Source: a virus
IMG/VR virus record: IMGVR_UViG_3300025000_002500
Span: 1-45,107 of that record
Direction: 5' to 3' (one strand)
DNA: 45,107 bases
The position numbers and the translations under genes are program-made. The number at the start of each line of letters is the position of its first letter. Position 1 is the first letter of the stretch. Below are positions 13,843-37,891 of the stretch, piece after piece. Under the pieces are notes generated by a model, which searched no databases, was not told where the DNA came from, and was given only the letters and a program-made list of their open reading frames with translations.

Positions 13843-13912
13843 GCATTAAACATAGTCTGTTCTAGTCATGGGGGCAGGGAGACCTATTATGCCAGCAGAC
13901 ATCATTTAATGC
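13843..13912. other. Candidate phage attachment site (attP)
   Basis: An imperfect inverted repeat of 17-bp arms (13843-13859 and 13896-13912; 13 of 17 bases symmetric, including GCATTAAA/TTTAATGC) surrounds a 36-bp centre. It lies at the integrase 3' end, between late lysis genes and the lysogeny operon, the place where many temperate phages carry attP. Large serine integrases use roughly 50-bp sites with inverted symmetry. The crossover dinucleotide cannot be chosen from one sequence. Confidence 0.35.
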
Positions 13913-15620
13913 ACTCCCAAGGCGGCAGGTTTAACCATGCCGCCACTTTTTTGTATATGGTTCTTGGATAACTTTGTGAGCGGCCTCGGGTGAAGCCGGT
14001 CTGTCGGTAATATTCGTCGGCCGTTAGGGTGATTCCTGCGCGCTTGGCGCGGAGGAGGACCTGGACGGCTATCATGTGTTTGGGGTTTTGGAATTCGGGC
14101 GGCGGGAGTTGGACGTTTACCGGGATTCGGAGTTTTGCTTCGGCGATATGCAAATGAGACATTTTGCGGGACTTCTCGGAGATGGTGACCTCTTCGAAAA
14201 CGGCTTCGCAGACCTGGCGTTTGGTGTAGGAGTCTAGAAGCTCCCACCAGGCATTGAAATCGGTGGAGTCATGCTGCAGGGCCTTAAGCAGCTCGGGCGA
14301 GGCATACGGGGCACTGAGGGCTGTCCGGAGTGCCGTCTGGCGCTGGGCCAGGAGTTCGACTTCTTTGTTCCATTCGGCGATCTGGCGCTCGAAGACCTGG
14401 CGGGCTTCCTCCAGGAGATCGCAGCTGGTTGTGGCATAGGCGGTGACTAGGTTCTTGAGCTGTGTCTGTTTGCGATCGATGAGGGCGTTGACGTTGTGCA
14501 GCTCTCGGATCTGCTCGGTTTTTGATTTCTCTGCCTGGCTGACTGCAATCTCGCAGTCCTGGCACAGGGCTCGGACTACATTGTGGTCCGAGAAGATCTG
14601 CTCGAGCATGAACAGGATAACTCGATGCGCTCGGTCTTTTCGCATGAAGATGATGTCCGGATTCTTCGGGTCCGATGGGCGGCGGTTGGTGTAGTTCCGG
14701 CGATCGCTGCCGAGCAGGGTCTGACCTTTGTACCTGAGCACGGATCTGGCCCAGGTGTTTGAGCTGGTGATCTCGTGACGGGTGATACGGCGGGCGATGA
14801 TGGCCTGGGCCTCGTGCCACTGTTCGAGAGTGATGGGATGGGGATAGTCGGCTTCCTTTTCGGGCCAGTTCCACTTCGATTGGTCGTCCAGGATGCTTTC
14901 CTTCCATCGGCGGCAGGGATAGCCGGCGTAGAATGGATTTCGGAAGATCCTGGCGAAGTTTGTCCAGGAGATGGGGAGATCTCCGTATTGTTCCTGCATC
15001 AAGCGCCAAACCGTGGCCATGCCGTATTTGGGGATGAGAGACCATATATCCTGGAGGATGGGGTAGGTTATGGGATCCGGCTCATAGCGCTTTTCGCCCG
15101 GAATGTAGGTGTAGCCGAATGGGCTTGTGCCGTTTGTGTAGCGGCCTTCCCTCTGGATCGCATGATCGCGTGCTAGCCCAGTACGTTCCTTGTATGAATC
15201 CAGCTCATAATCTGCAAAGAAAAGGCGCGTCTTGATGTCTCGGAGGTCGCCGATCTTGTTTGGATCGTAAAGGCGGTGCGGTGTAAGGATGTAGACCTCG
15301 TTGCGCTGGAGGCATTTAATGATCCGTCCCATTTCTTCCATGTCCGGACGTGCCAGTCTGTCGATATCCGTAACAATCCAAACCTTGGATTCGCCTCGAT
15401 CGCTCTTGGCCATGACTTCACCGAAGAGCTGACCGGCTTTCATGGTGAGGGCGCCAGATACGACGTCTTCGACGACCGTGTAGTTGAGGCCGTGCAGCTC
15501 CGCGAGTTCCACGAGGCGTGGGCGGTGGACGCGAAAGATTTCGTCTGTGGTTTCGTCGTCGGCACGGGACTTTCTGAGAATCACGTCGGCGGGAAGGTTG
15601 GTTAGGTCGGGATGGTTCAT
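13902..15620 (-). CDS. int: Large serine recombinase (phage integrase)
   Basis: It encodes 572 residues. The N-terminal resolvase domain has a catalytic Ser in VILRKSRADDE (S18) and the DRLAR motif in IVTDIDRLARPDMEEM. A 'recombinase' domain follows (about 150-260: GTSPFGYTY, WRLMQEQYG, IFRNPFYAGYPCRRW), then a coiled coil (about 370-420) and a basic tail. The zinc ribbon expected after YKGQTLLG lacks the usual CxxC/CxxxxC set. Only LCQDC further on has paired Cys, so this region appears degenerate or remodelled. It catalyses attP x attB integration, and excision needs a directionality factor that I cannot name. It overlaps the upstream gene by 4 bp, so it is expressed from the repressor operon. 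Confidence 0.9.
   Translation of the reverse strand: MNHPDLTNLPADVILRKSRADDETTDEIFRVHRPRLVELAELHGLNYTVVEDVVSGALTMKAGQLFGEVMAKSDRGESKVWIVTDIDRLARPDMEEMGRIIKCLQRNEVYILTPHRLYDPNKIGDLRDIKTRLFFADYELDSYKERTGLARDHAIQREGRYTNGTSPFGYTYIPGEKRYEPDPITYPILQDIWSLIPKYGMATVWRLMQEQYGDLPISWTNFARIFRNPFYAGYPCRRWKESILDDQSKWNWPEKEADYPHPITLEQWHEAQAIIARRITRHEITSSNTWARSVLRYKGQTLLGSDRRNYTNRRPSDPKNPDIIFMRKDRAHRVILFMLEQIFSDHNVVRALCQDCEIAVSQAEKSKTEQIRELHNVNALIDRKQTQLKNLVTAYATTSCDLLEEARQVFERQIAEWNKEVELLAQRQTALRTALSAPYASPELLKALQHDSTDFNAWWELLDSYTKRQVCEAVFEEVTISEKSRKMSHLHIAEAKLRIPVNVQLPPPEFQNPKHMIAVQVLLRAKRAGITLTADEYYRQTGFTRGRSQSYPRTIYKKVAAWLNLPPWECIK
13921..13952 (+). terminator. Rho-independent terminator of the late/lysis operon
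   Basis: GGCGGCA (13921-13927) pairs with TGCCGCC (13938-13944) around a 10-nt loop, followed by AC and six T (13947-13952). It reads on the + strand and would end late transcription after the endolysin gene. It is encoded in the antisense of the last integrase codons, so one sequence serves both genes. Confidence 0.75.
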
Positions 15621-16009: not shown

Positions 16010-16393
16010 CTAGGCGGACTTTCCTTCGTGCCATTCCTCAAGATCTACAGGGTCTTTCTGGAGTTCGGAGAGTACCTTCTTGGCTTCATCGGGCGTGAGC
16101 CGGCCGGTGTTTACGAGATATTCAGCCATCTGCTCTCGAACCATATCAGGTTTGGGATGTTCGTATTCGTAGCCGGCAGATCGCAAGAGAGCTTCTAGAT
16201 CAGGGTGTCGGTCTGCGTAGCCTGCAGCGAATTTTCTGATGATATCTGGTTGTGGTACTTTGCCTCTGCCCATGGCAAGTAGATAGGCTTGGCTGATTCC
16301 TGTCTTAATTTCTGCCTGCCCGAAAGAGTCCTGCCCCTTGATTTCGCGGATCAGTTCTCCAAACTCCTCGCAAACTCGTGATTCTCTACGCAT
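16010..16393 (-). CDS. XRE-like repressor (prophage immunity)
   Basis: It encodes 127 residues, with GGGAGC upstream of the ATG on the minus strand. The first 60 residues resemble a Cro/cI helix-turn-helix (FGQAEIKTGISQAYLLAMGRGKVPQPDIIRKFAAGY). The C-terminal half is charged and helical and lacks a LexA/cI peptidase domain, so induction would not be by self-cleavage. It is divergent from a small HTH gene at 16535 across an operator-bearing gap and heads the operon leading to integrase. The repressor role is inferred from this arrangement. Confidence 0.7.
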   Translation of the reverse strand: MRRESRVCEEFGELIREIKGQDSFGQAEIKTGISQAYLLAMGRGKVPQPDIIRKFAAGYADRHPDLEALLRSAGYEYEHPKPDMVREQMAEYLVNTGRLTPDEAKKVLSELQKDPVDLEEWHEGKSA

Positions 16394-16459: not shown

Positions 16460-16488
16460 TTGACAACAATAGTGAACAATGCTATGAT
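16460..16488 (+). promoter_or_regulatory. Early rightward promoter
   Basis: TTGACA (16460-16465) and TATGAT (16483-16488) are spaced by exactly 17 bp, a strong sigma70 promoter for the small HTH gene and the early operon. Its spacer holds an operator half-site, TAGTGAAC (16470-16477), and a full palindromic operator starts 11 bp downstream of the -10 box, so repression is readily explained. Confidence 0.82.
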
Positions 16489-17105: not shown

Positions 17106-17267
17106 ATGAGCGAGAAGTGCGACATCAAACCTGAGACGGATGAAGAGCAGATCCCGGAGTGGGCTATGCGCCTGGCGGCATTGATAGTGCCTACCGTAAT
17201 TGAACTGACCAGGCAGAGGCGGCCAGAGCTGTTCGAGGAGGGCCTGAGGGTGGAAGTCGGGAGTTAG
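17106..17267 (+). CDS. Short early protein (53 aa)
   Basis: The frame MSEKCDIKPETDEEQIPEW... runs from ATG 17106 to TAG at 17265-17267, with GGAGTAGGAG upstream. The first half is acidic, the second a helix with basic residues (LAALIVPTVIELTRQRRPELFEEGL). It starts 5 bp after the previous stop, in the same direction, with good codon flow. It is too short for family assignment. Confidence 0.5.
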   Translation: MSEKCDIKPETDEEQIPEWAMRLAALIVPTVIELTRQRRPELFEEGLRVEVGS

Positions 17268-17357: not shown

Positions 17358-17528
17358 ATGAACAGGCATGAGTTTGAGGACGAATGGGAGAGGTGTTACC
17401 AGGCTGACAGACGCCTCCGGAGACCGCGTGGTCTGCGCGTGACCTGGACGATTGGCGACCTGGTGTGCGGGATTCTGTTTGCGGGGCTGATCTTTCTCTG
17501 GATGGGGATCGGCTCGCTGTTGAGGTAG
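17358..17528 (+). CDS. Small single-pass membrane protein (56 aa)
   Basis: ATG 17358 follows GGAGGAGGAGCAGG; the frame extends upstream to 17274 but with no ribosome site there. Residues 1-28 are very basic and charged (MNRHEFEDEWERCYQADRRLRR). One membrane helix follows at about 35-52 (IGDLVCGILFAGLIFLWMGI). The orientation is probably N-in. Its stop codon (17526-17528) lies inside the first base positions of the structured repeat A. Confidence 0.5.
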   Translation: MNRHEFEDEWERCYQADRRLRRPRGLRVTWTIGDLVCGILFAGLIFLWMGIGSLLR

Positions 17529-17626
17529 ATTTTCGATTTGCCGGGCGGGGGTCGGCTTTTAAACCGGCCCTGACTCGATTTACATTCCACAGCCCTAAGA
17601 GTCTCACGCCACGGACGCCCGGCATT
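17525..17626 (+). ncRNA. Structured element A (first of a tandem pair)
   Basis: A closing helix of 9 bp joins TGCCGGGCG (17539-17547) to CGCCCGGCA (17616-17624). Inside are hairpin P2, GGGTCGG/CCGGCCC (17549-17555/17564-17570, loop CTTTTAAA), and helix P3, GACTC/GAGTC (17572-17576/17599-17603). GAGTCT at 17599-17604 could instead pair with AGACTC at 17635-17640 downstream. A separate TGTGC-GAAA-GCACA tetraloop hairpin sits at 17643-17656. The outer sequence is shared with element B while the interior differs. No coding frame explains the region. The strand is assumed from the surrounding operon. Confidence 0.5.
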
Positions 17627-17672
17627 CACATTCCAGACTCGTGTGCGAAAGCACATACATTCAGGACATCAA

Positions 17673-17782
17673 GTAGATTTTACGATTTGCCGGGCGGACC
17701 GCACGGTGACCTTTGAAAGCGCCGTCTCCTACTCGCGTTTAACAGGCCGCGAGAAGGGAGAACGCAACGGACGTCCGGCATT
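17673..17782 (+). ncRNA. Structured element B (second of a tandem pair)
   Basis: Element B begins 148 bp after A. The 5' 25 bases match A except for one inserted A, and the last 16 bases match 15 of 16. The closing helix TGCCGGGCG (17688-17696) with CGTCCGGCA (17772-17780) keeps pairing because the single change converts a G-C to a G-U pair. P2 is ACGGTG/CGCCGT (17703-17708/17720-17725), with CTTTGAAA in its loop where A has CTTTTAAA. P3 is CTCC/GGAG (17726-17729/17757-17760) enclosing CTCGCG/CGCGAG (17732-17737/17748-17753). It ends 42 bp before the next gene, so it could act as a leader RNA, a processed small RNA or a binding site. Confidence 0.5.
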
Positions 17783-17824
17783 GATTTCCGCTCGGGTACA
17801 CGGCGGTAGGAAATAGGAGTAGAT

Positions 17825-18304
17825 ATGTATCGAATTGCAATTAGACCAGTGTTGTTGGATGTCTGGGAGATTGTGCCCGGGGAGTTCGACGACTCGATGA
17901 TCGAGGAGCAGCTCAAGCAGCTCATGTTCGTTCACGGCATTGAGAACGTGGAGCTCTACCAGAAAGTGTCGGTACAGGCAGAGCTAGTGATCAATCTACA
18001 AATCGGCATCAAACAGATACTGGAGACCGCCGTGCAGCAGGTTCTTCAGGATGCCGCCCAGGCAGTCGAAGCCCTAGAGAGCACGAAAGACTCAAAGTCG
18101 GATCAGAGTGTAGAGATAGATCCGGCTAACTATATTACCCCGAACGAAGCGGCCGCAGAAAGGGGTTATGTGCCGGGAACAGTCCACACCATGGCCAATA
18201 GAGGCGAGATCCCTTTCGTCAAGGCCCCAAACGGGAGGATCTACATTCCGCGCGCAGCCTGGGAAGAGTGGAAAGCAGTACACCCCGTAGCGGGCAAAAA
18301 GTAA
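17825..18304 (+). CDS. HTH protein with excisionase/MerR-like C-terminus
   Basis: It encodes 159 residues, with AGGAG upstream of the ATG. Residues 1-95 form an unrecognised, acidic, helical domain, perhaps for oligomerisation (DDSMIEEQLKQLMFVHG... IGIKQILETAVQQVLQDAAQAVEALE). Residues about 105-155 read as a DNA-binding fold of the excisionase/MerR type: ITPNEAAAERGYVPGTVHTMANRGEIPFVKAPNGRIYIPRAAWEEW. It could be a transcription factor or the recombination directionality factor for an integrase. It directly follows the structured RNA pair. Confidence 0.62.
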   Translation: MYRIAIRPVLLDVWEIVPGEFDDSMIEEQLKQLMFVHGIENVELYQKVSVQAELVINLQIGIKQILETAVQQVLQDAAQAVEALESTKDSKSDQSVEIDPANYITPNEAAAERGYVPGTVHTMANRGEIPFVKAPNGRIYIPRAAWEEWKAVHPVAGKK

Positions 18305-19371: not shown

Positions 19372-19625
19372 CACGGGAACCCCTGATCGTGGACTATGCG
19401 ATTGCTGATAACTGCAGCAATCCGGACGTGGTACACATCTGCCATAAGTGCAATCGTTGCGGGCGGTTTCCTGGCAGGCCGGTGAATATGGATGATATGG
19501 ATACTTCTTGTGTCATGGATCCGGTGACCTGCAATTTGAGTGACCTGGTGGATGGATGGTCTGGAGATCAGTTATACCTGTGTCATTGTACTGGTGGGTA
19601 CTGTTTGCAGCAGGAGACGGATTGA
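19359..19625 (+). CDS. Small Cys-rich (putative zinc-ribbon) protein
   Basis: It encodes 88 residues from GTG 19359, overlapping the previous gene by 13 bp. It has CHKCNRCGRF near residue 28 and CHCTGGYC near the C-terminus, with two more Cys between, so one or two metal sites are likely. The early operon contains several such small Cys-rich proteins, which suggests nucleic-acid- or protein-binding takeover factors, but no homologue is recognised. Confidence 0.55.
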   Translation: MEKVAREPLIVDYAIADNCSNPDVVHICHKCNRCGRFPGRPVNMDDMDTSCVMDPVTCNLSDLVDGWSGDQLYLCHCTGGYCLQQETD

Positions 19626-19684
19626 GAGGGGGTGATATGCATGGTTGAGGAAACAACGGCAGTCCAGGAGGCTGCTGAAGCAGG
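19624..19684 (+). repeat. Duplicated leader, copy 1
   Basis: The first 25 bases, covering the ribosome site and ATG, are identical to 19982-20006. The next 36 bases, coding for the N-terminus, match at roughly 27 positions. This is the parent copy, belonging to a 95-aa gene. Confidence 0.7.
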
Positions 19685-19981: not shown

Positions 19982-20042
19982 GAGAGGGGGTGATATGCAT
20001 GGTTGAAGAGACTCAGGATGTCCAGGAAACTGCTGACGCAGG
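19982..20042 (+). repeat. Duplicated leader, copy 2
   Basis: This is a near copy of 19624-19684, with the first 25 bases identical. It provides the ribosome site and first codons for a 30-aa acidic peptide that lacks the rest of the parent protein, so it is a partial gene duplication. Confidence 0.7.
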
Positions 20043-20727: not shown

Positions 20728-23667
20728 GTGAGTCAGAACGTTAGAGATTTTATAGAGAACATTAGGGACAGAGCGTCGATCGAGGAAGTTGTTGGGAAGG
20801 TTGTTCGGTTATCTTCCGGCAGCCGGCCGATCGGGCTCTGTCCTTTTCATAGTGAGGACGGACCTTCGTTTACTGTGTATCCGGAGCAGGGGAGATTCCG
20901 CTGCTTCGGATGCGGGGTTGGGGGGTCCGTTTTTGATTTTGTGATGCTCCAGGAGGGGGTTGACTTCTGGGAGGCGGCAGTGAGGCTGGGGGATCGGTAT
21001 GGGATTCCTCTACCGGAGTACTCCGCTAAGGATCAGGCGGTGGTGGCGAAGGAGAGCGAGGTCCGGGAGATCCTGGGCCGGTTTGTGGTGGCGTCGCACC
21101 AGAAGCTGCTAAAGTGTCCGGAGGCGCTGGAGTATTTGCATTCCCGTGGAATCACGGATGAGTCGATTCGGGAGTATCAGCTCGGGCTTGGAGTTGGGAT
21201 CAGCTCTAAGGCAAAGCATCCGGACGTCCGGAGTAAGGCAGTCGAGGCGGGGCTGATATCTGTCAAGGACGGCCGTGAGTTCGAGTTGATGAAGGGTCGG
21301 TTGATTTGTCCAATCATCCGGAATGGGCGCGTGGTGCAGATCACGGGGCGGCTGATGCCGGACGCCGAGGGGGAGCGCGGGAAGAGGAAATCGCCGAAGT
21401 ATCTTGGCCTGGCGGATAAGGGGTTTACTCCAAAGCAGCCGTTGAACTCACATCGACTGAGGGAAAAGCACGTTGCGCTGGTCGAGGGCTATATAGATTG
21501 CATACTCCTGGAGCAGGAGGGGATTGCGGCTAGTGCGACCACCGGAACGGTGTTTAAGGACGAATGGCTGAGGTATTGCGGGAAGGATACTCGGTTTTCG
21601 CTGTGCTACGACACTGATGCTAATCAGGCTGGTCAGCAGGCGAACGAGAAGATAGGTCAGGTGTTTTTTGATGCCGGGCGTGCTGTGGAGGTGTTGGAGC
21701 TTCCTATGGGGCATGACCCGGCTTCTTATGTTTTGGCGAACGGTGGGGATGCGTTTCGATCGGAGCTGGCGCAGGCAAAACAGTACATTTCCTATTGGAT
21801 CCACCGGCAGCCGGCATCTAGTACGGCTCACGACGTGGAGAGGATCCTACAGTCTGCGTATGGGATGCTGGCCAGGCTGGACAAGGGGATTCGCGGGCGG
21901 TATGTGGCTGAGCTGGCCGCGTACTTTAAGCTGACCAGAGGGGATGTTCGGGATGGGCTGTCGGACTATTTGAAGCGACCGGCGAACATCGAACATTCAA
22001 CATCGAACGTTGAACGGGGGGAGTCGGCGGGTGGAGATGGTCACCAGGTGGGGGAGGTGGCTGATGATGATGGGCGGCCGGTTGTGTACGCGGACAATGA
22101 GGACCTGGACGTGACGACGCTGCAAGTCGTAGAGGCGGTAAAGTCTAAGAATTCGGAGTGTCCGATCTACTTCCGCCAGGGCGGTGTGCCCATACGGCTG
22201 CGTTTGGATGATAACGGGGCTACTACGGCTCAGCGGTGGACGCTGGATATCGCTCGTCATGAGCTGGTGCAGATCATCTCCTGGCGGCGCACGGTCCACA
22301 AGAAGGGTGGGGGCTCGTTTGATGTGGTGGCCACTCCGAAGGATGTGCAGATCCGGAACTTCCTTTCTACGAAAGATATGCCGCTGCCGATTCTCTCCAG
22401 GATAACCGATGTGCCGGTATTTGCTCCGGATGGCAGCCTGCAGACCGAACCTGGATACCACGCGGCGTCCAGGACGTATTATGTGCCGGCTGCCGGGCTG
22501 GAGATTCCGCCTGTTCCTGACTCGCCGACACCTATGGATATGAAAAAGGCTATCGATACCTTTGACGATGTGGTGTGCGATTTCCCGTTTGTGGCAGCGG
22601 CTGATAAGGCGCATGCGTTTTGTTTGTGGCTGCTGGCCTTTGTGCGAGACATGATTCCAGGGTCGACACCGATGCATTTGATCGAAGCGCCTTCTCCGGG
22701 TTCCGGAAAAGGGCTGCTGATGGATGCGCTGGTACTGCCTTCGGTCGGCAGCCATGTCGGATCTGTTACTCAGGCGACCGACGAGGATGAGTGGCGAAAG
22801 AGGCTGACCTCGGTGATCATCAAAGGGCAACAGGTAGTTATGATCGATAACGTAACCAGGATGCTTGACTCGGGGACGCTGGCATCCGCATTGACGCAGC
22901 TCGTCTGGGAGGACCGTATTCTGGGGCGGTCTGAGAGCGTGGATGTGCCGGTGCGCTGTATCTGGGTGTGTACGGCGAATAACCCGGCGATGAGTACGGA
23001 GATCGCCAGGCGGTGTATCCGGGTGCGCATCGATCCGAAGAGGGACCAGCCGTGGAATCGCTCGGGCTTCCGGCATGTGGATCTGCGGACGTACGTGCTG
23101 TCGTGCCGGGCAGAGATGATCTGGGCGGCTTTGACGATCGTCCGCGGGTGGATAGCTGCGGGGATGAAGCCGTATTCGGGGAAGGTGCTGGGGTCGTTTG
23201 AGCAGTGGACTCGGGTGCTCGGGGGGATCTGCGAGCATGTGGGGATAGAGGGCTTCCTGGGGAACTTGTTGGAGCTGTACGAGCAGGCGGATGTGGAGGG
23301 TCAGCAGTGGAGGGCCTTTGTTGAGCAGTGGTGGGAGGCGTTTCGTGATCGGCAGATCGGGGTTTCGGAGCTGTTTGAGATTGCGGAGAAATCCGATCTG
23401 TTCAACTTCGGGAAGGTGTCGGATCATTCGAAGAAGATCTCGTTTGGGCGGAAACTGGGGGCTCAGCGGGATAGGGTGATTGGGGATTTCCAGGTGCTGC
23501 AGAGTCCTCAGAAGAAAGCGCGGGCAGTGCAGTGGATGCTTAAGAGGGTGTCTGGTGATGACGCTGAGGATTCGAAGGCGGGGTCTATGATGACGGAGGA
23601 GCTGCCGATGTATGAGGATGATATCCCGCAGGAGTATCAGGAGTATGAGGAAGGTGAGATAGAATGA
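20728..23667 (+). CDS. Primase-helicase fusion protein
   Basis: It encodes 979 residues. GTG 20728 is chosen because AGGA lies 7 bp upstream; GTG 20722 is too close. The N-terminus is a DnaG-type CHC2 zinc finger with C38-H41-C59-C62. A TOPRIM domain follows, with LVEGYIDCIL (about 250) and CYDTDANQAGQQ (about 290-300). Residues about 418-430 come from a heptamer array. The C-terminal half holds a P-loop ATPase with EAPSPGSGKGLL (about 652-663) and MIDNVTRM (about 703). It resembles a D5/SF3-like replicative helicase or primase-associated ATPase. It should prime and unwind phage DNA at the origin. No separate phage polymerase gene is seen, so host polymerase is probably recruited. Confidence 0.87.
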   Translation: MSQNVRDFIENIRDRASIEEVVGKVVRLSSGSRPIGLCPFHSEDGPSFTVYPEQGRFRCFGCGVGGSVFDFVMLQEGVDFWEAAVRLGDRYGIPLPEYSAKDQAVVAKESEVREILGRFVVASHQKLLKCPEALEYLHSRGITDESIREYQLGLGVGISSKAKHPDVRSKAVEAGLISVKDGREFELMKGRLICPIIRNGRVVQITGRLMPDAEGERGKRKSPKYLGLADKGFTPKQPLNSHRLREKHVALVEGYIDCILLEQEGIAASATTGTVFKDEWLRYCGKDTRFSLCYDTDANQAGQQANEKIGQVFFDAGRAVEVLELPMGHDPASYVLANGGDAFRSELAQAKQYISYWIHRQPASSTAHDVERILQSAYGMLARLDKGIRGRYVAELAAYFKLTRGDVRDGLSDYLKRPANIEHSTSNVERGESAGGDGHQVGEVADDDGRPVVYADNEDLDVTTLQVVEAVKSKNSECPIYFRQGGVPIRLRLDDNGATTAQRWTLDIARHELVQIISWRRTVHKKGGGSFDVVATPKDVQIRNFLSTKDMPLPILSRITDVPVFAPDGSLQTEPGYHAASRTYYVPAAGLEIPPVPDSPTPMDMKKAIDTFDDVVCDFPFVAAADKAHAFCLWLLAFVRDMIPGSTPMHLIEAPSPGSGKGLLMDALVLPSVGSHVGSVTQATDEDEWRKRLTSVIIKGQQVVMIDNVTRMLDSGTLASALTQLVWEDRILGRSESVDVPVRCIWVCTANNPAMSTEIARRCIRVRIDPKRDQPWNRSGFRHVDLRTYVLSCRAEMIWAALTIVRGWIAAGMKPYSGKVLGSFEQWTRVLGGICEHVGIEGFLGNLLELYEQADVEGQQWRAFVEQWWEAFRDRQIGVSELFEIAEKSDLFNFGKVSDHSKKISFGRKLGAQRDRVIGDFQVLQSPQKKARAVQWMLKRVSGDDAEDSKAGSMMTEELPMYEDDIPQEYQEYEEGEIE
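21981..22015 (+). repeat. Heptamer array 1 (in primase-helicase)
   Basis: Five 7-bp units, GGCGAAC-ATCGAAC-ATTCAAC-ATCGAAC-GTTGAAC, are read in frame as ANIEHSTSNVER. They lie between the primase and ATPase parts of the protein, a place that tolerates added linker. Confidence 0.82.
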
Positions 23668-24011
23668 TGCCAGGGTCGGGATCGGCGGCGGAGGAGTTGA
23701 TCAGGATACTGAAGGAGTGCAACGTTGAGTTGTTCGTACTGGATGGGGCGCTCAAGTATCGGGGGCCGAAGGAGATTGTGGCGTCGGCTAGACAGGACCT
23801 GGTGGAGTATAAGGAAGATCTGCTTAGGCTTGTTCCACAGAGGCATAGCAGGGCTCTGGCGTGTGGGAACTGCGGGAAGAATGTGTGGCGGCATGAGCAG
23901 CTTGCGTATGATGGCGCTGGTGGAGATGTGTGCGCTGGGTGTTGTCACGCGGTTAGGTTGGATGTTGTACGTTCGACGGCTAGCGTTCAGCATTCGACAT
24001 TGAACATTTAG
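23664..24011 (+). CDS. TubC-like docking domain plus zinc ribbon (115 aa)
   Basis: Residues about 9-56 (AEELIRILKECNVELFVLDGALKYRGPKEIVASARQDLVEYKEDLLRLV, a long pattern given here by its ends AEELIRIL and DLLRLV) resemble the TubC N-terminal docking fold that mediates protein-protein contact. A four-Cys ribbon follows (CGNCGK ... CAGCC, about 67-93). The C-terminus, VRSTASVQHSTLNI, is translated from heptamer array 2. The ATG overlaps the primase-helicase stop, so it is coupled and may bind that replication protein. Confidence 0.55.
   Translation: MMPGSGSAAEELIRILKECNVELFVLDGALKYRGPKEIVASARQDLVEYKEDLLRLVPQRHSRALACGNCGKNVWRHEQLAYDGAGGDVCAGCCHAVRLDVVRSTASVQHSTLNI
23971..24005 (+). repeat. Heptamer array 2 (in zinc-ribbon protein)
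   Basis: Five 7-bp units, GTTCGAC-GGCTAGC-GTTCAGC-ATTCGAC-ATTGAAC, form the end of the reading frame. The peptide is RSTASVQHSTLN. This is the most diverged of the four arrays. Confidence 0.72.
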
Positions 24012-26926: not shown

Positions 26927-27013
26927 AGATAATGGTGGGGTTTGGGTTGTTTTTCGGGGTGGGATTTCGGGCGGAATGGTGCAGATTAACAAGCGATATA
27001 CTTATAAAGAGTA

Positions 27014-27042
27014 TTGCCAGTTTTGCCGAGAATGGGTATAAT
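27014..27042 (+). promoter_or_regulatory. Strong promoter for the tyrosine recombinase
   Basis: TTGCCA (27014-27019) and TATAAT (27037-27042) have 17 bp between them. The start would fall near 27049, about 70 nt before ATG 27122, with AGGAGGG as ribosome site. No immunity-type operator is visible. Confidence 0.7.
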
Positions 27043-27121
27043 TGGAGTGGTGGGTTGAGATTGGGTGGTGAAGTGCTATCTAGTCGAAAACTCGCAAGAT
27101 AATTTTTAGGAGGGCAAAACG

Positions 27122-27988
27122 ATGGGTGTTAATCTGGATGATTTTCGCGCGAAATTGGAGGTTGAGGACCTTAGTGTGTTGACGGTCCGGAACTATTGCT
27201 CGGATGTGGAGATGTTTGTGCGGTGGTTTGAGGAGACGTACGGGCAGGAGTTTGATGCATCGAGGATCGTGCAGAGAGAGGTTTCGGAGTATCGTACCTG
27301 GCTGCAGGGTGGGGAAGTGCCGGCGTCGGCTGAGACGATCAATCGGCGGCTGACTTCGCTCCGGAAGTTCTTTGGCTTTGTGGGTGAGACGAATCCGGCG
27401 AAGGGGGTGAAGGGTATCCGGGTGGTGCAGCCTGGCGTCCAGGCGTTGACGTTGACGCAGCTCCGCCGGCTGTTGCGGGAGGTACATGTTCACAAGGACG
27501 TCCGGGACATCGCGATTCTGGAAGTGCTCTGCGGGACGGGTATCCGGGTTGCGGAACTGGTGGGGTTGAAGGTGGCGGATGTAGAGATCTCCGATCGGCG
27601 TGGATCGTTGACTGTTCGATGCGGCAAGGGTAGGACGTCGAGACAGATACCGCTGAACGTGGACGTTCGGAAGGCGCTGTCGGCCTGGCTGGAAGAGCGT
27701 GGCTCGGATGAGGGTTGGTTGTTTACCGGGCAAAGGGGGCATCTGCAGACCTGCGCGATTTGGCGGATCGTGAAGAAGTATGGGGAGTATGCGGGCATCG
27801 ATGATCTAAGGGTTCATCAGCTCCGGCATACGGTGATCACCAGGATGGTGCAGGAGTTGGGGATGGATTTGCCAACGGTGGCTCGGATCTCGGGACATCG
27901 GTGTTTGGCGAGTGTGCTGAGGTATGCCGCTCCGACGCAGGATCGGATGGAGAAGGCGATGGAGGAGTTGGCGCTGGCGGGGGATTGA
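27122..27988 (+). CDS. Tyrosine recombinase (XerC/D-like)
   Basis: It encodes 288 residues. A SAM-like core-binding domain at 1-100 (LSVLTVRNYCSDVEMFVRWFEE) is followed by the catalytic domain with R142 (GTGIRVAEL), K169 (CGKGRTS), H232 and R235 (HQLRH), H259 (SGHRC) and Y268 (LRYAAP). All conserved residues are present. It is a second recombinase besides the serine integrase. Its size and place in the replication module fit a Xer-type resolvase of phage or plasmid multimers rather than an integrase. The iteron region 0.5 kb upstream is a candidate target. Confidence 0.9.
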   Translation: MGVNLDDFRAKLEVEDLSVLTVRNYCSDVEMFVRWFEETYGQEFDASRIVQREVSEYRTWLQGGEVPASAETINRRLTSLRKFFGFVGETNPAKGVKGIRVVQPGVQALTLTQLRRLLREVHVHKDVRDIAILEVLCGTGIRVAELVGLKVADVEISDRRGSLTVRCGKGRTSRQIPLNVDVRKALSAWLEERGSDEGWLFTGQRGHLQTCAIWRIVKKYGEYAGIDDLRVHQLRHTVITRMVQELGMDLPTVARISGHRCLASVLRYAAPTQDRMEKAMEELALAGD

Positions 27989-29186: not shown

Positions 29187-29966
29187 ATGGGTTTGGATGA
29201 GAGCGGACAGTTGAATATCGGAGGAACGTCGAACGTTCAACTTCCGACTTCCAACGTCGAATTGGGGGAGTCTGTGGATGCCTCTGGTGTGATGCCGGCT
29301 GGGTGGACTGCGGAGCAGCTTCAGATGTTTCCGGATCTGCAGTTTGAGGCGATGTCCGATGAGCAGTTGGGGTTGGGGTTAGATTTGCCGGAGGGTGATC
29401 CTCTTTCGCTTCAGGAGAGTGTGTTCGTCCAGGCCTATTGCTTTGGGAGTTCCGGTGAGTTTGGCGGGAAGCCGTTCGGGAGCTTCAATGGGACTGCATC
29501 GGCTCGGTTGGCTGGGTATCCTCATCCTCATGTGGCGCAGAACCGGCTTCGGCAACGGCCTAGAATCAAGAAGGCTGTCTCGGCGGCATTGTCTGAGGTG
29601 TTGTCTGACGGTCGGGCATCGCGCGAAGCGTTGGTGCTGAAGTTGGCACGGATCGTTCACGGGGATCTCGGCGAGCTGGCTCGTGCTCTTCCGGATCCAG
29701 AGCATGTCACCCTGGCGGACCTGGCCATGCTTCCCCCCGATGTAGCAGCTTCGCTCCGTAAGATCAAAGTACATACGGTGGAGCGGGTGAAACGGGGCGG
29801 AGTTACGGAGTCTGAGAACTTCGTTGATATCGAGCTGCACGATCCGAAGTCGGCGGCGGAGTTGATCGCGAAGATCGAGGGGATGGTTACGGACAAGGTT
29901 CGGCACGAGGGTGCGGTGTCTGTGACGTTTACCGACGAGGACAAGCTGGAAGATGAAGGAAGTTAG
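29187..29966 (+). CDS. terS: Terminase small subunit (Terminase_2-like) with long N-terminus
   Basis: It encodes 259 residues. The central part (about 75-160) has the order seen in small terminase subunits: SLQESVFVQAYCFGS, then NGTASARLAGY, then QNRLRQRPRIKKAVSAALSEVL. The C-terminus (KSAAELIAKIEGM) matches the oligomer-contact end. The first 70 residues are an extension partly made of heptamer array 4 (TSNVQLPTSNVELGES). It recognises phage DNA and starts packaging with the large subunit, whose ATG overlaps its last 14 bases. Confidence 0.77.
   Translation: MGLDESGQLNIGGTSNVQLPTSNVELGESVDASGVMPAGWTAEQLQMFPDLQFEAMSDEQLGLGLDLPEGDPLSLQESVFVQAYCFGSSGEFGGKPFGSFNGTASARLAGYPHPHVAQNRLRQRPRIKKAVSAALSEVLSDGRASREALVLKLARIVHGDLGELARALPDPEHVTLADLAMLPPDVAASLRKIKVHTVERVKRGGVTESENFVDIELHDPKSAAELIAKIEGMVTDKVRHEGAVSVTFTDEDKLEDEGS
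29228..29262 (+). repeat. Heptamer array 4 (in small terminase)
   Basis: Five 7-bp units, GTCGAAC-GTTCAAC-TTCCGAC-TTCCAAC-GTCGAAT, translate as TSNVQLPTSNVEL in the N-terminal extension. The register and flanks are as in array 3. Confidence 0.85.
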
Positions 29967-36543: not shown

Positions 36544-37753
36544 GCGAATATTCACAGTACTTACCGTCTGTCTGCTCGTCTGTGCGGTGCTAGGCACTTC
36601 ATGGGCGCAGTACGGCAGGGCGACTTCTTACAGTACGTTTACCGTGGGGAGCGGCGGGTTGTTCGCTCACGGAGGCAACTTCACTGTAGAGACTTCCGCC
36701 GGTACCGACAAGTTCACGGTAGCGGCATCGAGTGGAAACACCGTATGCTCCGGCACGATGGGCATTACGGGGCTGGCCTCGCTTAACGGTGGGCTGGCGA
36801 TGGATACGAACAAGTTCACCGTCGCTGACACTACCGGGAACGTGCTGACCGCAGGGACATTCTCGCAGACCCTCGTCAATGCGGCTGGTGGGAGCGCGAA
36901 CCCCTACGACTACACAGGTACGCTCGGGATAATGAACGGGTCTGACGACTTCACCCTGTTCGACATCAATATGACCAACGCCAATCACACCGGCTCTAAC
37001 ACTGTGCAGATACTCGATATAGCGAACATCACCGGTGATGCGGAAGCCACAGAGACAGCGGTGCTTATCGGCACAGGATGGGATGCCGGCATCACGAGCA
37101 GCAGCCTGGTCAACTTCAATGCGGGCATAGCCTGTGACACTGACAAGTTCGTAGTGGCCGACAGCACGGGCATTGTCACGTTGAGCGGCGGCGGTACTAT
37201 TGACAACAATACTTCCGCGACCGTAATGAACCTGACAGAGACGACCGTCCGTGTAACAGGCATCCTCGATGTCACCGGTAACTCCACACAAGCCACAGTG
37301 GATGTGGGTGGAGGCTATGGTTCTACCGGAGCCAACATAGCGTCATCCGGGAACATCAGCACAAACGGAAACCTGATAGTCGATGGTACAGGCCAGATCC
37401 GGGCGCAGTTGACAGTCGCAGAGACCACCAACGCCAGGGTGTGCACGAGTGCCGACTTCGGCAAGCTCATCATATGCTCGGTGGCCGATGCCTTAAGCAT
37501 CACTCTCCCGGCGAACGGAGCGACGGCGGGGTCATACATCGACTTCCTGATAGTGAGCGAGAACGGAGGGACTGTTACTATCAGTCCTGCCACTGCGGAT
37601 ACACTCATTACTGCAAGCAGCGCAGACAGTGACGCTGTCACTTTCGCGACAGGGCAAAGGATCGGCGCTTACTGCCGAGTGATCTCAGACGGTACGGCTT
37701 ATGCGGCCATCAACTTGGGTCAAACCACCATGGGGGTGACAGACACCGACTAG
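36533..37753 (+). CDS. Beta-rich fibre-like protein with signal peptide
   Basis: It encodes 406 residues. Two start codons (36533/36536) overlap the preceding gene's end. The N-terminus MMSRRIFTVLTVCLLVCAVLGTSWA with likely cleavage after A25 is a Sec-type signal peptide. The rest is Thr/Gly/Ser-rich with repeats such as TDKFTVAASSGNT, TNKFTVADTTGNV and TDKFVVADSTGIV, resembling phage fibres and head-fibre proteins. A signal peptide in a virion gene is unusual. It could be exported to the cell surface, or be an assembly protein whose signal is not used. Hairpins begin at its last codons. Confidence 0.62.
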   Translation: MMSRRIFTVLTVCLLVCAVLGTSWAQYGRATSYSTFTVGSGGLFAHGGNFTVETSAGTDKFTVAASSGNTVCSGTMGITGLASLNGGLAMDTNKFTVADTTGNVLTAGTFSQTLVNAAGGSANPYDYTGTLGIMNGSDDFTLFDINMTNANHTGSNTVQILDIANITGDAEATETAVLIGTGWDAGITSSSLVNFNAGIACDTDKFVVADSTGIVTLSGGGTIDNNTSATVMNLTETTVRVTGILDVTGNSTQATVDVGGGYGSTGANIASSGNISTNGNLIVDGTGQIRAQLTVAETTNARVCTSADFGKLIICSVADALSITLPANGATAGSYIDFLIVSENGGTVTISPATADTLITASSADSDAVTFATGQRIGAYCRVISDGTAYAAINLGQTTMGVTDTD

Positions 37754-37829
37754 TTTGCCGGTGTCTGTATTCCTCGCGGAATATTCTGCAGAATGACACA
37801 CTGGTCCACCTCGCTGATGAGGTGGACCA
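37739..37829. repeat. Three hairpins after the fibre-like gene
   Basis: ACAGACACCG/CGGTGTCTGT (37739-37748/37759-37768) includes the preceding gene's stop in its loop. ATTCTGCAGAAT (37783-37794) is a 12-bp palindrome. TGGTCCACCTC/GAGGTGGACCA (37802-37812/37819-37829) is an 11-bp perfect stem. None has a clear T-run, so processing or a weak terminator are options. Confidence 0.7.
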
Positions 37830-37891
37830 CACATGCCCGCACTGACGCAACCGGGGTTTGATTCCCTGGGCGGGGACAATGAGGTATCGCA

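Follow-up and report, generated by a model that had tools for sequence, protein, structure and literature searches.

Gene content and sequence of the tandem units

The window, by which we mean the whole stretch of DNA analysed, is a 45107-bp linear IMG/VR virus record whose gene content fits a temperate phage. Besides the regulatory and recombination genes placed in Table 1, it encodes a DnaG-type primase, a ParB-like protein, a Terminase_3 large subunit, a portal and a major head protein. The phage encodes both a serine recombinase (- strand) and a tyrosine integrase (+ strand). Between an 84-aa ORF that ends at 17528 and a helix-turn-helix (HTH) gene lie two tandem copies of a non-coding element, units A and B, offset by 148 bp, and the HTH start codon follows 43 nt downstream of them in the same direction. 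Small ORFs inside the units were considered and rejected, as no credible ORF is present there.

Table 1. Positions in the window of the two units, their predicted helices and selected genes.
Feature	Position	Strand	Details
Serine recombinase	13902-15620	-	
Repressor-like gene	16010-16393	-	
Best sigma-70-like promoter, probable early rightward	16460-16488	+	TTGACA-17-TATGAT, extended -10; consensus match only
Unit A	17525-17626	+	5' block, P1, P2 (loop CUUUUAAA), weak P3, 3' block; fold z -3.74
P1 5' strand of A	17539-17547	+	UGCCGGGCG
P2 hairpin of A	17548-17571	+	8 bp, loop 17556-17563 CUUUUAAA
P1 3' strand of A	17616-17624	+	CGCCCGGCA; perfect complement of the P1 5' strand of B too
GAAA-tetraloop hairpin	17641-17656	+	between units; enclosed by alternative A3'-B5' helix
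Unit B	17673-17782	+	5' block, P1, P2 (loop CUUUGAAA), P3, 3' block; fold z -2.79
P1 5' strand of B	17688-17696	+	UGCCGGGCG
P2 hairpin of B	17703-17725	+	7 bp and one bulge, loop 17711-17718 CUUUGAAA
P1 3' strand of B	17772-17780	+	CGUCCGGCA; one G-U pair
P2 double-sided change 1	A 17549G-17570C; B 17704C-17724G		
P2 double-sided change 2	A 17553C-17566G; B 17708G-17720C		
P2 double-sided change 3	A 17555G-17564C; B 17710C-17719G		
HTH / excisionase-like gene (HTH_17)	17825-18304	+	159 aa; directly downstream of units; SD AGGAG 17815-17819
Tyrosine integrase	27122-27988	+	

Gene order and a promoter-like site make it likely that transcripts cross the units on the way to the HTH gene. That site lies ~1 kb upstream of the units and was the only sigma-70-like promoter found, compared to 1.2 expected by chance. 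No intrinsic terminator (GC hairpin and U run) was found beside the units, whose 3' flanks read AUUCACAUU and AUUGAUUUCC, and no promoter-like or terminator-like site flanks them; the sole nearby terminator-like site on the + strand is at 17254, upstream of the units. Predictions gave no clear helix blocking the SD of the HTH gene. With neither an adjoining terminator nor clear SD occlusion, the regulatory output is not visible.

The ends of the units are nearly identical. The 5' block is shared at 24 of 25 nt with one indel, reading GTAGATTTTCGATTTGCCGGGCGG in unit A (17525-17548) and the same with one inserted A in unit B (17673-17697), and the 3' block is identical at 19 of 21 positions (ACGCCACGGACGCCCGGCATT at 17606-17626 and ACGCAACGGACGTCCGGCATT at 17762-17782). 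A first-pass annotation of this DNA had located the pair and its spacing correctly and had described the interiors between the ends as swapped. The interiors are indeed strongly diverged, yet their global alignment beats 985 of 1000 shuffles (15 reach the score), so the two are probably copies that have diverged, and not inserts that were swapped, as judged from the alignment. The similarity is carried mainly by GGU...CUUU[U/G]AAA...GCC. The spacer and the 3' flanks show no clear similarity. Should a single duplication account for the spacing, the ends would have resisted change and the remainder would not. Further copies of the whole blocks were not found elsewhere in the 45107-bp window. The motif ACATTCC occurs twice without mismatch, once inside unit A and once just past it, and its two-mismatch counts are at chance level.

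GC skew at the site is -0.035 against an early-region median of 0.30 (G-rich + strand), placing it in the lowest 0.3% of windows; balanced skew is expected of a self-pairing RNA, and also of DNA of different origin. The start region of the HTH gene (17808-17839, AGGAAATAGGAGTAGATATGTATCGAATTGC) weakly resembles the sequence before unit B (17663-17690, AGGACATCAAGTAGATTTTACGATTTGC) at a spacing of 146 bp compared to 148 bp between the units. In a comparison chosen after inspection, 5 of 1000 shuffles reached the score of the HTH start against the 5' block of B. This resemblance may hint that the units arose by duplication of the leader, or it may be chance.

Other repeats and stable folds were seen elsewhere in the window. 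A 61-nt direct repeat of 84% identity (19624-19684 and 19982-20042, the second copy 358 bp on) has its first copy across the beginning of a small ORF and points to duplication of a gene start within the same operon. At 1471-1575, near the junction of two convergent ORFs, and at 37731-37835, both strands have very stable hairpins (z about -5 to -7) that are probably terminators. An unusually stable + strand RNA window (26986-27090, z -5.9) lies just before the tyrosine integrase gene and ends a long stretch without a clear gene. Runs of the CGAACATTCAACATCGAACGTTGAACG type, located within and between genes at 21990-22015, ~23975-24010, 24575 and 29210-29260, presumably resemble the 'NVE/NVQ' repeats of Planctomycetota/Verrucomicrobiota-type genomes, a possible clue to the host; Bacillota are considered improbable as hosts.

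Predicted folds of the units and of the RNA between them

Compared to shuffled sequences, the units are more stable on the + strand (z in Table 1) than on the - strand, where z is about -1.9. In a scan of the whole phage, + strand windows beginning at 17606, 17676 and 17536 ranked 6th, 15th and 17th lowest in z out of 2572. The lowest value at the site, -5.75 for window 17606, covers the region of the GAAA hairpin, and the 300-nt region taken whole is only moderately stable (z -2.24).

In the predicted fold the conserved ends pair as a 9-bp closing helix, P1, in each unit, and the sole difference between A and B changes a G-C to a G-U pair. This helix, the second hairpin with its CUUUUAAA or CUUUGAAA loop, and the GAAA hairpin between the units had all been described in the first-pass annotation and were recovered here. 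The second hairpin, P2, presents an 8-nt loop, CUUU[U/G]AAA (CUUUKAAA), on differing stems in the two units. Aligning A and B on the loop and on GGU/GCC left three of the P2 pairs unchanged; three carried double-sided changes that remain paired, one carried a single-sided change and one was lost to the bulge. Under a strict definition of a shared-loop hairpin (two hairpins of at least 6 bp, similarly placed, whose 8-nt loops agree at 7 or more of 8 bases), 4 of 20000 interior shuffles matched by chance, and under a looser one admitting any loop of 5-10 nt, 49 of 4000 did (~1.2%). Kissing between the two P2 loops gave 6 pairs in a duplex model at only about -1 kcal/mol.

The third helix, P3, is predicted as 5 bp with a 22-nt loop in A and ~11 bp in B. 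Being weak in one unit and long in the other, it is of doubtful homology, and it lends the modeled structure no support. Strand-specific fold energy, G-U pairs that can form only on the + strand, compensated P2 stems and the common loop together support a structured RNA on the + strand, as modeled. These same features bear out the earlier claim of RNA structure under selection in part, and selection as such would be read from two paralogous sequences only, the searches below having found no homologue that could supply independent covariation.

The first-pass annotation had also noted an alternative pairing of one helix strand in unit A, which is overshadowed by a stronger one. The P1 3' strand of A (CGCCCGGCA) can pair without mismatch over 9 bp with the 5' strand of P1 in B (UGCCGGGCG), and this helix, lengthened by pairing of CGG 17612-17614 with CCG 17699-17701, surrounds the GAAA hairpin. 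Predicted energies of -105.5 kcal/mol for the separate units, -108.0 for the A3'-B5' fold and -107.9 for the doubly exchanged fold are equal within model error. In growing transcripts, the predicted equilibrium moved from A5'-A3' to A3'-B5' once B5' was included, and both the predicted fold choice and the final balance varied with the amount of flanking RNA included. The near-equal energies and the predicted swap as B5' emerges make helix exchange physically plausible in these models.

Searches for related elements

Consistent with the earlier statement that the element belongs to no known family, Rfam 15 gave no family at a curated score within the window, and in the region of the units the only match was Alpha_RBS (E 2.8, 11.5 bits against a cut-off of 38). 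A tRNA or tRNA-like gene was rejected since ARAGORN reported 0 genes, though the P2 loops look like Lys/Gln anticodon loops.

Pattern scans of IMG/VR and GTDB required near-exact ends or loop. For an exact 14-mer of the 5' block, IMG/VR returned at least 120 matches, and none among the matches listed had a fitting 3' side with this architecture. The P1 pair pattern gave 32 IMG/VR matches, none with the P2 loop, which were judged to be chance; a descriptor free of P1 (flanks, loop and ACGGA) gave 17, none with full P1 complementarity; and the 3' block pattern gave two, both within portal-protein-like genes of other phages. The strict pattern matched GTDB genomes once, in Paenibacillus, at two short hairpins of different architecture. 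Because these scans demanded near-exact ends or loop, the absence of homologues is weak evidence of rarity.

BLAST against phage and plasmid records found no homologue of the units, and IMG/VR held no close relatives of the HTH protein, primase or recombinase. Relatives of TerL were found, but the contigs examined have no early-region gene in common with the window, and the element is absent from them. A covariance model of the units found no homologue in five related phage contigs; it held P1 and only two P2 pairs, because automatic alignment places P2 one base out of register. One related phage (L227:2506-2633) carries three hairpin repeats of the GTGCGAAAACGCAC type inside a replication-protein-like gene, resembling an iteron-type origin. 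Taken together, the tandem pair is a real, unusual orphan feature and probably a structured RNA.

A candidate cis-acting leader and its alternatives

By computation, the units keep their ends and the P2 loop and fold preferentially on the + strand. The explanation that we favor, at somewhat short of an even chance, is that they are tandem paralogous structured RNAs acting in cis, in a non-coding leader that precedes the HTH (excisionase/regulator-like) gene in an early rightward operon. Transcription with the early mRNA and action in cis are the inferred parts of this reading. The units would be co-transcribed in the early mRNA, and because the four P1 strands (A5', A3', B5' and B3') are interchangeable, the RNA could adopt one of two states, a pair of closed units or a central helix of A3' with B5' that encloses the GAAA hairpin. 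Which state prevails may be decided by a protein, the ribosome or the progress of polymerase, and this would in turn determine how strongly the HTH gene and those beyond it are expressed. A more specific version is a two-copy switch, in which the closing-helix strands trade partners between the separate units and the central helix, and the regulatory alternative would arise from the duplication itself; in this form we consider it improbable. Of the roles offered in the first-pass annotation, a leader for the HTH gene fits the position and direction of the units, whereas positive evidence for a separate small RNA or decoy was not found.

The least improbable competitor, though still unlikely, is a DNA element in which proteins would bind the blocks as inverted and direct sites (operator, partition or origin), the RNA fold being a by-product of the inverted repeats. 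The ends, P1 included, are conserved as sequence beyond mere pairing and their arms alternate in direction, the phage encodes ParB-like, repressor-like and adjoining HTH proteins, and 9-bp inverted repeats without mismatch, spaced like these, are not rare (15 in the window). The iteron-like hairpin motifs within a gene of a related phage also suit this reading. It leaves unexplained the common loop on compensated stems, the G-U pairs and the strand asymmetry of folding, and the whole blocks have no further copies in the window. Less probable than this is a put- or nut-like site in the RNA, through which RNA polymerase would be modified for antitermination on the early operon. Structured RNA within an early operon recalls the HK022 put RNAs with their two similar copies (PMC9378689), but the put copies occur one per operon, the only nearby + strand terminator-like site (17254) is upstream of the units, no Rfam family matched and an N-like protein was not identified.

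We give little credence to one or two trans-acting phage small RNAs serving as sponge, decoy or RNA antitoxin. Their ends would be closed as in processed small RNAs, and repeated motifs before a protein gene recall type III toxin-antitoxin or AbiF RNA RCd22 (PMC12373285); against this, the downstream protein is an HTH rather than a toxin-like nuclease, and the units lack a flanking promoter-like or terminator-like site. A type III toxin-antitoxin RNA would show short tandem repeats, an intrinsic terminator and an endoribonuclease toxin gene in that order; here no terminator-like site lies between the units and the gene, which is HTH_17. Equally slight is the prospect of a non-functional remnant, a local duplication of the HTH leader or start region with ends kept by recent exchange. 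That the HTH start resembles B's 5' block (a score reached by 5 of 1000 shuffles) at near-equal spacing (148 and 146 bp) is in keeping with such a history, but drift would not leave the two ends paired and 90-96% identical beside a strongly diverged middle, nor would it retain the P2 loop. Our first choice is a leader that acts in cis and may switch by helix exchange, ahead of DNA sites, antitermination, trans RNAs and a non-functional duplication.

At present the pair is a well-defined candidate and not an established class. If confirmed, it would add a new class to the leader RNAs of phages, sited at an early-operon control point, and offer a simple case of tandem RNA-element duplication yielding a helix-exchange switch.

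Tandem riboswitches and other tandem cis-regulatory RNAs place two paralogous folded units in series before a gene, with conserved parts and variable stems. The phage units resemble tandem riboswitches in having serial paralogous folds upstream of a gene; they differ in conserving the sequence of the closing helix where riboswitches conserve a junction core, and neither an Rfam match nor an expression platform was found. AbiF RNA RCd22 carries two motifs (PMC12373285), and like it and the type III antitoxin RNAs, the units repeat an RNA motif ahead of a phage protein gene, with the differences that an HTH regulator lies downstream, an RNA-gene terminator is absent and no family matches. The put RNAs of HK022 are ~70 nt long with two stem-loops each and exist in two similar copies, putR lying ~270 nt after its promoter (PMC9378689). 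putL and putR share with the units the form of a structured RNA of ~70-110 nt, in two similar copies, in the early operon of a temperate phage. We claim no sequence similarity between them. In each unit the closing helix encloses at least one inner hairpin, and whereas the put copies lie one per operon, units A and B are adjacent in a single operon.
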